From contig JAJRZK010000001.1 in the NCBI GenBank assembly GCA_024275315.1, positions 1 to 64,000 on the forward strand: a stretch of 64,000 nucleotides of DNA, in the 5' to 3' direction. Position 1 is the stretch's first letter, and each line of letters opens with the position of its first letter. This DNA is from Nitrospirota bacterium. Its GTDB lineage: Bacteria > Nitrospinota_A > UBA7883. Below the pieces are notes generated by a model. That model searched no databases, was not told where the DNA came from, and worked only from the letters and a program-made list of their open reading frames with translations. Both the position numbers and the translations under genes were made by a program. Of this stretch, positions 44,660 to 52,343 are shown piece after piece.

Positions 44660-45997
44660 CTATTTGCGCCTCCCCTTGCGCAGTTCTCGCATCCTGTCGG
44701 CGATGGCCGCTTCACGTCCCAGGTTTGTCGGCTCGTAATATTTTCTGTCCATAAGCATTTCCGGCAGATAGCCCTGCTCGACGAAATGGCCGGGATAATC
44801 GTGCGGGTACCTATACCCCTTGCCGTACCCGAACTTTTTGGCGTCTTTGTAATGTGTGTCCTTCAGGTGATCGGGGACGGGAAGGCTTTGGCCCTCCTTT
44901 TAGATATTGTCCATCGCCCTTTTAATGGCGACATAAGCGGAGTTGCTTTTTGGCGCGGTGGCTATGTGCAGCGTGGCGTGGGCGAGAGGTATCCGCCCTT
45001 CGGGAAGGCCGATACGCTCCACAGCCTCTGCGGCTGCCACCGCCACCATCAACGCCGCCGGATCGGCAAGTCCCACGTCCTCAGACGCGGTTACGATCAG
45101 CCTTCGCGCGATAAACCTGGGGTCCTCGCCGCCTGCAAGCATCTTGGCCAGCCAGTATATGGCGGCGTCCGGGTCAGACCCGCGCAACGATTTTTGGAAA
45201 GCCGACGCATGATCGAAATGCTCCTGTCCGAGTTTGTCATATAAAATCGAGCTGTCCTTTGCAAGATCGTTGATATTTTCCATCCCGATCCGTCTGCCGT
45301 TTTCACTCTTGTCAGACGCATGCGCCACCGCTTCAAGAAGGTTAAGAGCCACCCTGGCGTCCCCGCCGGATATTTCGGCTATACGTTCGAGAACGCCTTT
45401 GTCCGGTTTTATTTCGTAGTCGCCGAGCCCACGCTCCCTGTCCGAAACGGCTCTTTTAAGCAACCGGAGCACGTTGTCAAACCCCAGCGCCTCCAGGCGG
45501 AATATCCGGCACCGGGACCTTAGCGCCGGGATGACTTCGAACGATGGATTTTCAGTTGTAGATCCAATAATCGTCACAGTCCCGTCCTCCACCCTGGGCA
45601 GGATAGCGTCCTGCTGGACCTTGCTGAATCTGTGAATCTCGTCTATGAACAAAACAGTCCGACGCCCGGCGGATTTCCATTCGGCTCTGGCCATCTCAAT
45701 CGCCTTGCGAAGGTCGGCCACCCCGGCGGCAACGGCGGATATTTCCAGGAAAACGCTCTTTTGTGACGACGCGATCAGCCTGGCCATGGTGGTTTTTCCG
45801 GAACCTGGCGGACCCCAGAAAATCACCGAAGGGACTTTCCCGGCGTCTATAAGCTTTCGAAATGGCTTACCCGGCGATATGAACTGTTCCTGCCCAACCA
45901 ACTCATCAAAAGTGACAGGCCGCATCATGTCCGCCAGCGGCCTTGGCCCGCCCTGGTTCCCGCCTGGTAAGTGATTGTCGAAAAGGTTTAATCTCAT
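44660..45997 (-). pseudogene. rarA: Replication-associated AAA+ ATPase RarA, interrupted by an in-frame TAA
   Basis: RarA/MgsA acts at stalled replication forks. The 5' part (45997 to 44900, 365 residues) has Walker A (GPPGSGKTT), Walker B (LFIDEIHRF) and the family's helical region. A TAA at 44900-44902 stops it after AMDNI. Without any frame change, translation past the TAA runs through the expected C-terminus (LPVPDHLKDTHYKDAKKF, then GYGKGYRYPHDYPGHF and VEQGYLP) to a TAG at 44660-44662, giving the normal family length of about 445. One base therefore separates it from an intact gene: recent nonsense mutation, sequence error or readthrough. Confidence 0.88.
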
Positions 45998-49570: not shown

Positions 49571-50332
49571 ATGGATCTGGCCACAATAATCGGTATAATT
49601 GCCGGGCTTGGAGTTATCGCCTCTGCGATAGGCGTCGAGAATCTGACAATTTTCATAAGCATACCATCATTTTTGATTGTAGTCGGCGGCACTGTTTGCG
49701 CCATCATGGTCAACTATCCCTTGGCGGATTTGGGGACTATGATCAACGTCATAAAAAAAACCTTGTTTTATAGTGTACCGAACCCTCGAGACATTATTCC
49801 GATGCTGGTGGATTTCGGATCCAAGGCCCGCCGTGATGGCATACTCGTGCTCCAGTCTGTCACAAAGGATATTGACGACCCCTTCGTGGGCCAGGGCATC
49901 CAGCTTGCCATAGATGGCGCGGAGCCGCAGATGATCCTGAAGATACTTGAAACCGAGGTGGAATACGTCAAGGAGCGGCACAAGCTGGGAGCGCAAATGG
50001 CGGAAGCCATTGGAACTTTCATGCCGGCGTTCGGTATGGTGGGCACCCTGGTTGGCCTGGTGCTGATGTTGCAATCTCTCGACGATCCTTCCACGATCGG
50101 ACCTTCGATGGCCATAGCGCTGATAACCACATTTTACGGAGCGCTGATGGCGAACCTCATTTTTCTGCCTATGGCTGGCAAGCTGAAAAAGCGTAGCGCC
50201 GATGAGGTCCTGGTAAAAGAGCTTATCATAGAAGGAATAGTCTCAATCGCCTCGGGTGATAACCCGAGAATCATGGAACAAAAGTTGCATGCGTTCCTTT
50301 TGCCCAAACTAAGACAGAGCCAGTTCGACTAA
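49571..50332 (+). CDS. motA: Flagellar stator subunit MotA
   Basis: MotA and MotB form the ion channel that powers flagellar rotation. The 253-residue protein has four membrane segments (near residues 4-25, 30-50, 150-170 and 180-205). The loop contains the helix with KARRDGILVLQ seen in family members that contact the switch. The C-terminal membrane part has PAFGMVGTLVGLVLML. Its stop overlaps the next gene's start (TAATG), so translation is coupled. Sequence does not show whether protons or sodium are used. Confidence 0.95.
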   Translation: MDLATIIGIIAGLGVIASAIGVENLTIFISIPSFLIVVGGTVCAIMVNYPLADLGTMINVIKKTLFYSVPNPRDIIPMLVDFGSKARRDGILVLQSVTKDIDDPFVGQGIQLAIDGAEPQMILKILETEVEYVKERHKLGAQMAEAIGTFMPAFGMVGTLVGLVLMLQSLDDPSTIGPSMAIALITTFYGALMANLIFLPMAGKLKKRSADEVLVKELIIEGIVSIASGDNPRIMEQKLHAFLLPKLRQSQFD

Positions 50333-51039
50333 TGAGAAACATCGCGCCACGCCCGGCAGGCAACCGCAGGGGCGACCTTCTCAATAAAATGAACGTCACG
50401 CTCATGATGATTCTTCTGGCGTTTTTCATCGTGCTCAACTCACTTGCTGTTCCTGCGCCGAGCAAGAAAAAAATAGCGCTCGGGTCGTTGATCGGGTCGC
50501 TGGGGATATTGCCTGGGGGGCCGTCTCCAATAGTCGCAAAACGAAAAACACTGACCCGGGCACAGGCGCCCATCCTGCCGAAGCCGGACTCCCCGGCCCA
50601 GTTGATGGGGGAGTTCGAGGAGTATGTCATCAGGAAAAAAATCGCCGAGGATGTGGCTACCGTCGTGACAAACAACGGACTTGAACTGACAATCAACGCC
50701 AGCATGATTTTCAAGCGCAACTCAATAGAGATCAGACCGGTGATTTACCCTGTGCTTGACAGGTTAAGTCATCTGCTCAAACGGGTAAACGGTCCTTTTG
50801 TCATAGAGTGCCATTCGGATAATAAAAAATTCAAATCAGCCAGGTACGCAACTTCCATTGATTTTTCCATTGCCCGCGCTGGCGCTGTCGCCAGGTATTT
50901 TATGGATAAAGGCGGTGTGGAGCACTCTAATGTATCCATCTCGGGTTACGGTCCCCTTTTGCCTCTTTTTCCCAACGACACAGCGGAACACAGGAAGAAG
51001 AACAACAGGGTGCGTATTGTTTACAGGCGTGCGGTTTGA
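50332..51039 (+). CDS. MotB paralogue lacking the ion-binding aspartate
   Basis: This 235-residue protein has one membrane helix near residues 20-38 (NVTLMMILLAFFIVL) and a C-terminal OmpA/MotB peptidoglycan-binding domain. The plug region is replaced by a longer linker. Aligned on AFF, the position of the essential aspartate (AYAD in E. coli MotB) is threonine, and no acidic residue lies in the helix. In the OmpA domain, GHTD has become CHSD, but NNRVRI is kept. It cannot be a normal channel subunit; it may tune or replace a stator part. It overlaps motA by one base. Confidence 0.85.
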   Translation: MRNIAPRPAGNRRGDLLNKMNVTLMMILLAFFIVLNSLAVPAPSKKKIALGSLIGSLGILPGGPSPIVAKRKTLTRAQAPILPKPDSPAQLMGEFEEYVIRKKIAEDVATVVTNNGLELTINASMIFKRNSIEIRPVIYPVLDRLSHLLKRVNGPFVIECHSDNKKFKSARYATSIDFSIARAGAVARYFMDKGGVEHSNVSISGYGPLLPLFPNDTAEHRKKNNRVRIVYRRAV

Positions 51040-51052
51040 CGAGGCGGCTTTT

Positions 51053-51820
51053 ATGAGTATATCCACTGCACAGAAAAAAAAGAGAAGCAAACAGGAAGAG
51101 GAAGGATTCGACGCTGAATTCTGGATGGTTACGTTCGGCGATCTTCTGTCGCTATTGATAACGTTTTTTGTGATGTTGTTTGCAATGTCGTCACTCGACG
51201 ATCAGATTTTATAAGAGATGTTTATTTCAACGTTTTCCGGCGGCGCCGGAGCGTTGTCGTTTGGAATAGGCGGCGAAATTCACCCGCCCACCATGGAGAG
51301 TATCGCCACCCAGCGACAATTGGGGATGCAAAAGCTGTACGATTTTCTACTGAACAAAGACAAACAGATAACAAAGGAGATAATGACCTCGCTCAAGGGG
51401 TTGACTGAAAGCATGCTGGCGATGGATGTGGTGATCAGGAAGCGCGGGCCGAATTTCAGCCTGGTGTTTCCCAGCGAAAAAATGTTCCCGCCCGGATCGG
51501 CGCAGATCAGCGAACCAGTCAAACAGATCCTGAAAAACCTTGGTGATGTCATGAGATTTTCCACAAGCGTAATATCGATCGAGGGGCATACGGACAGCTT
51601 GCCGTTGCATGGCGGCAAGTTCCCTTCAAACTGGGAGCTATCGGCGACCAGGGCGGCCAATGTTATGAAATTTCTGGTTGATCAGACCCCTGTTGAGGCG
51701 AATCGAATACGGGCCATAGGTTTTGCGAATACGAAGCCTGTGGTCAAGGAGGTAAATGAAGATATGCGGGCGCGCAACCGGCGAATAGAGATAATGGTGC
51801 GCCAGGCGCCCGAAAGTTAA
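51053..51820 (+). pseudogene. motB: Canonical MotB interrupted by an in-frame TAA
   Basis: The 5' piece (51053-51214, 53 residues) has a charged cytoplasmic start and the channel helix FGDLLSLLITFFVMLF with the essential aspartate. A TAA at 51212-51214 ends it after SLDDQIL. The same frame continues GAG ATG with the plug region (FISTFSGGAGALSFGIGGE) and a full OmpA domain (EGHTDSLPLHGGKF, ATRAANV, RARNRRIEI) to a TAA at 51818-51820. Together they equal one normal MotB with a single changed codon. The 3' part might be reinitiated at ATG 51218 but would lack the membrane helix. Confidence 0.92.
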
Positions 51821-51848: not shown

Positions 51849-52343
51849 ATGGCTGATGACGAAGCGGCGGAGGGAGCCTCTTCTGGAGGCAGTAAACTTC
51901 TTATCATAATTCTCGCTATTGTTCTGGTCCTGCTTATAGGCGGTGGGGCGGCTGTGTATTTTGTTGTATTGCCAAAAATACAGCAAACGGAGGGAAAAAC
52001 CATTGAAACGGCTGAAAAAGAGAAAGCGGCGCCGGCGGTATCGCTGGGGAGCACTATTGAGCTTCAGCCTTTTATCGTAAACTTGTCCGGCGGCGGCGGA
52101 CGATACCTCAAAACCACAATGGTTCTTCAGCTATCCACCCCCGACGTGGCCAAGGAAATTACGAACCGGGCTCCACAGATCAAGGACGCGGTGATTACGA
52201 TTTTGTCGAGTAAGACAGCGGATGAAATCATGTCCGTCCAGGGTAAATATGATCTTAAGACGGAGATTATGAGAAGGGTGAATACATTCCTTTCGACAGG
52301 GGTCGTCCGGGAGTTATTTTTTGTAGAGTTCGTGGTACAATAA
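51849..52343 (+). CDS. fliL: Flagellar basal-body protein FliL
   Basis: The 164-residue protein has a short cytoplasmic start, one membrane helix near residues 17-40 (LLIIILAIVLVLLIGGGAAV) and a periplasmic domain. The family patterns are LQPFIVNL, the KDAVITILSSKTADE helix and the C-terminal FFVEFVVQ. FliL surrounds stators and stabilises them. It sits between motB and fliM. Its last domain is the yardstick by which the first protein in the window looks FliL-like. Confidence 0.94.
   Translation: MADDEAAEGASSGGSKLLIIILAIVLVLLIGGGAAVYFVVLPKIQQTEGKTIETAEKEKAAPAVSLGSTIELQPFIVNLSGGGGRYLKTTMVLQLSTPDVAKEITNRAPQIKDAVITILSSKTADEIMSVQGKYDLKTEIMRRVNTFLSTGVVRELFFVEFVVQ

Follow-up and report, generated by a model that had tools for sequence, protein, structure and literature searches.

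Several bacteria, including Shewanella, Bacillus subtilis and Pseudomonas aeruginosa, carry multiple stator sets that serve a single flagellar system (reviewed in PMC9039648), and where more than one MotAB-type set is available, one of them can be lost. Aquifex aeolicus has a motA-motB1-motB2 operon in which the N-terminal/transmembrane regions of the two MotB proteins are 97% identical (PMC4525482). Stator genes can be inactivated by nonsense or frameshift mutations, the kind to which spontaneous motA mutants of Campylobacter jejuni 81-176 belong (PMC3928116).

Here we describe a motB gene with an in-frame stop codon in a 63-contig draft genome of a Nitrospirota bacterium (G000 below; GenBank assembly GCA_024275315.1). 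The window is the first 64,000 nucleotides (64 kb) of contig JAJRZK010000001.1. As in A. aeolicus, a single motA is followed by two tandem motB genes in the order motA-motB1-motB2 (Table 1), but, unlike in that bacterium, MotB1 lacks the channel aspartate whereas MotB2 has it. Similarly to the C. jejuni mutants, one stator gene appears to be inactivated while the rest of the flagellar system is complete; however, the C. jejuni variants arose in the laboratory, affect motA and have lost motility, whereas here the affected gene is motB2, the genome is an environmental draft and two spare stator sets are encoded. The difference from Shewanella, B. subtilis and P. aeruginosa is that G000 has three predicted stator sets, two of them with tandem motB genes.

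Table 1 Features of the operon stator set and the adjoining fliL gene (window coordinates)
Feature	Position	Strand	Observation
motA of operon stator set, intact	49571..50332	+	MotA_ExbB Pfam E 1.5e-27; full-length 62-76% identity to relatives
motB1, tandem MotB-like gene, Thr in place of channel aspartate, OmpA domain intact	50332..51039	+	OmpA E 9.3e-13; MotB_plug just 0.0045
motB2, interrupted MotB with channel Asp30	51053..51820	+	One in-frame TAA
motB2, first open part (53 aa): basic N-terminus plus a transmembrane helix carrying Asp30	51053..51214	+	MotB_plug E 2.6e-15
In-frame TAA, codon 54	51212..51214	+	Relatives: Lys n=5, Glu n=1
motB2, second open part (200 aa from ATG): plug end, linker, OmpA/peptidoglycan-binding domain	51218..51820	+	OmpA E 1.1e-18
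fliL, opening the conserved fliL-flhG cluster	51849..52343	+	FliL E 4e-24; order conserved

The interrupted motB2 frame

Translation of the motB2 frame, which begins with MSISTAQKKKRSKQEEEGFDAEFWMVTFGDLLSLLITFFVMLFAMSSLDDQIL, yields 53 residues, then the TAA, then 201 open codons up to the terminal TAA. The part upstream of the stop matches positions 2–45 of the 58 in the Pfam MotB_plug profile, and the downstream part matches the whole OmpA profile (PF00691, positions 1–98). Translation and profile matches thus bear out the coordinates of the original prediction and its description that a lone in-frame TAA falls just after the channel helix and that the same frame resumes with a normal C-terminal domain: the stop lies downstream of the aspartate-bearing helix, and the peptidoglycan-binding domain is intact. 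Read across the stop and aligned with six relatives, the frame contains the channel aspartate, Asp30, in WMVTFGDLLSLLITFFVML; this residue aligns with the ion-binding Asp32 of Escherichia coli MotB. The frame also has a motA nearby, with one intervening gene, and what it lacks is continuity between the channel helix and the OmpA domain. A disrupting change in a gene that is intact in relatives is one mark of a pseudogene, and motB2 carries such a change.

The comparison set consisted of 24 genomes of the phylum, G000 included. The tandem motB1-motB2 pair precedes fliL and fliM in 7 of these, G000 counted, with motA ahead wherever the contig extends that far. In all six other genomes, motB2 is uninterrupted and aligns end to end across the stop, such that the split is absent from every relative that has the gene. 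Comparison of codon 54 among relatives had been proposed as a check on the original prediction; the homologous codon encodes Lys in G008, G009, G010, G012 and G018, and Glu in G003, and a single-base difference is enough to separate TAA from a sense codon. The neighbors of motB2 are full length compared with their counterparts in relatives, in agreement with the earlier remark that the other flagellar genes look intact. A search of G000 for a second, intact copy of motB2 found none, the next best matches in the genome being at 30%. A scan of genome contigs yielded only distant MotB relatives (29–42% identity).

Origin and decoding of the stop codon

The most probable explanation, in our assessment, is that a dispensable stator gene has recently been hit by a nonsense point mutation, which is now either fixed or segregating. 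The main rival, which we consider unlikely but by no means negligible, is that the TAA was introduced in error during assembly or base calling, or stems from a minor variant that became the consensus, with motB2 being intact in the organism. The genome is a multi-contig draft, one base change suffices to create the stop, and the surrounding sequence is undamaged, with only one base off, as a sequencing error would predict. Against an error, the stop is located outside any homopolymer or repeat, and single-base consensus errors are rare at the usual short-read depth. We further searched the window in all six frames for stops that have a coding-like open frame on either side. Four such stops were found, of which two are the ordinary ends of neighboring genes, one is at 44902 on the minus strand and one is the motB2 TAA; the latter is the only confirmed single-stop gene split in the window, which also speaks against error. 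We infer that the TAA is genuine in the organism. The stop at 44902 separates a 371-codon frame from 79 more coding-like codons in the same frame and may be either a gene end or a second split.

A recent origin of the mutation fits the state of the sequence downstream of the stop. Across the six relatives, 31 residues of this part are invariant; G000 keeps 29 of them and has two altered, the same count as for G003. This conservation, together with 201 open codons free of frameshifts, is far from chance. With regard to relaxed selection after the disruption, the branch of the post-stop part is somewhat longer in G000 than in G003 (0.57 vs 0.38), and so is that of motB1 (0.47 vs 0.27), with motA, fliL, fliM and fliN about even between the two genomes. 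Lineage-specific changes in the post-stop part number 27 vs 17, which is not significant (p 0.17; against neighbors, p 0.35). Long-term decay of motB2 was accordingly not detectable, with nothing visible beyond the single stop base, as would be the case if the event was recent. Taken by themselves, however, the non-significant counts are compatible with a recent stop, an error or a remainder that is still in use, and favor none of these.

Continued use of the remainder could come about by termination at the TAA followed by reinitiation at the ATG three bases downstream, producing a split MotB of which both halves are made. The proximity of the ATG to the stop in TAAGAGATG and the lack of detectable decay in the downstream frame are what this scheme would call for, yet we regard it as very improbable. 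The ATG is not a new start but an inherited internal Met codon that five of the relatives share, none of the six shows the split, and the region upstream of the ATG at 51218 contains no Shine-Dalgarno-like purine run at the usual spacing. Moreover, the released 200 aa part has, on inspection, no evident signal or membrane helix, so that the anchor would be left in the cytoplasm.

Readthrough of the TAA, whether through a suppressor tRNA, recoding or an altered genetic code, would account for the resumption of the frame in register, but we find it scarcely credible. Among stop codons, UAA is as a rule the least leaky. In the same cluster, TAA terminates five genes, namely motA, fliL, flhB, flhF and motB2 itself. 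Among the 45 tRNA genes found in G000 with RF00005, all of which were typed, none has a UUA anticodon, and the sole stop-reading tRNA is the selenocysteine one, which reads UGA. Given the absence of a UUA-anticodon tRNA and the use of TAA as a normal stop, a suppressor or a changed code is rejected. The selenocysteine tRNA gene (contig 13, locus L089, 39–133) makes recoding of UGA likely in G000.

The operon stator set and the aspartate-less MotB1

The nonsense mutation, be it fixed in the strain that was sequenced or widespread in that strain's population, would inactivate motB2 as follows. The ribosome would halt after a 53-residue peptide consisting of N-terminus and channel helix, and the plug, linker and peptidoglycan anchor would remain unattached to this peptide, so that the operon set could not form an anchored ion channel. 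In the tandem partner, MotB1, the channel aspartate is replaced by Thr in all seven operon-bearing genomes, and by Ala in the corresponding tandem gene of a deeper relative (G023). MotB2 is thus, by its sequence, the sole aspartate-bearing, that is, ion-carrying, B subunit of the operon set, and its interruption should therefore silence the set, which is probably non-functional. The description of motB2 as canonical in the original prediction holds with regard to the channel aspartate and the OmpA domain, with the qualification that motB2 is preceded in tandem by another motB-like gene, which lacks the channel aspartate.

The conservation of an aspartate-less MotB1 beside MotB2 is more interesting than the broken motB2. 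We found no paper in the open-access literature on a MotB without the channel aspartate next to a normal MotB. Speculatively, MotB1 and MotB2 might combine into mixed pairs within a single MotA ring, and a conserved aspartate-less paralog ahead of a normal MotB makes the existence of such pairs a testable question. It is conceivable, although highly improbable, that the two proteins are normally paired in this manner and that, in G000, the 53-residue MotB2 fragment supplies the aspartate whereas MotB1 supplies the anchor; were this the case, the ion-binding helix and the cell-wall anchor of the stator would reside on separate chains.

Additional stator sets and dispensability of the operon set

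G000 encodes two further complete stator sets, motA-motB-motB' on contig 31 and motA-motB on contig 17, and all the MotB proteins of these sets contain the MotB_plug and OmpA domains and the channel aspartate. FliG and four flagellin-type genes are present as well. In the contig 31 set (locus L090, 2232–4697), one motA is accompanied by a tandem pair of motB genes, each of which encodes the aspartate. The second MotB is extended at its N-terminus by a stretch that contains CxxC-type motifs (CPHCSVRA and CPNCKTTI) and resembles a zinc ribbon.

Across the phylum, fliM was detected in 18 of the 24 genomes and the operon motB2 in just 7 (E 1e-40). The genome G007, which is 100% complete in four contigs, retains the fliL-flhG cluster but lacks motA-motB1-motB2, and has a single motA, adjoined by a MotB of the contig 17 type. 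G001, from the same family, combines the fliL-flhG cluster with the other two kinds of motA, again without the operon set. Given that the flagellar cluster is kept in relatives devoid of the operon set, this stator is dispensable for keeping the flagellar system, and, with two intact sets elsewhere in G000, the broken one is accessory. The two complete sets would be able to drive the same rotor, and it is probably for this reason that the loss of motB2 is tolerated.

The conclusion of the original prediction that, if the stop is real, the stator cannot be made in the usual way therefore stands for the operon set, one of three, and fails for the organism as a whole, given the two intact sets and the relatives that do without the operon. 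Judging from gene content, a rotating flagellum is still to be expected in G000, presumably driven by the other two sets. The broken motB2 is real as sequence and ordinary as biology, and serves mainly as a warning against inferring a paralyzed flagellum from one gene when spare sets exist; if the TAA is real, it also exemplifies the paring down of redundant stators in nature.

Two irregularities were observed in the fliM genes of other genomes. In G008 (locus L124, 2144–3135), fliM aligns in two frames, 1–256 and 258–331, which suggests a frameshift or a sequence error, and for the fliM match in G016, two internal TAA codons were reported.
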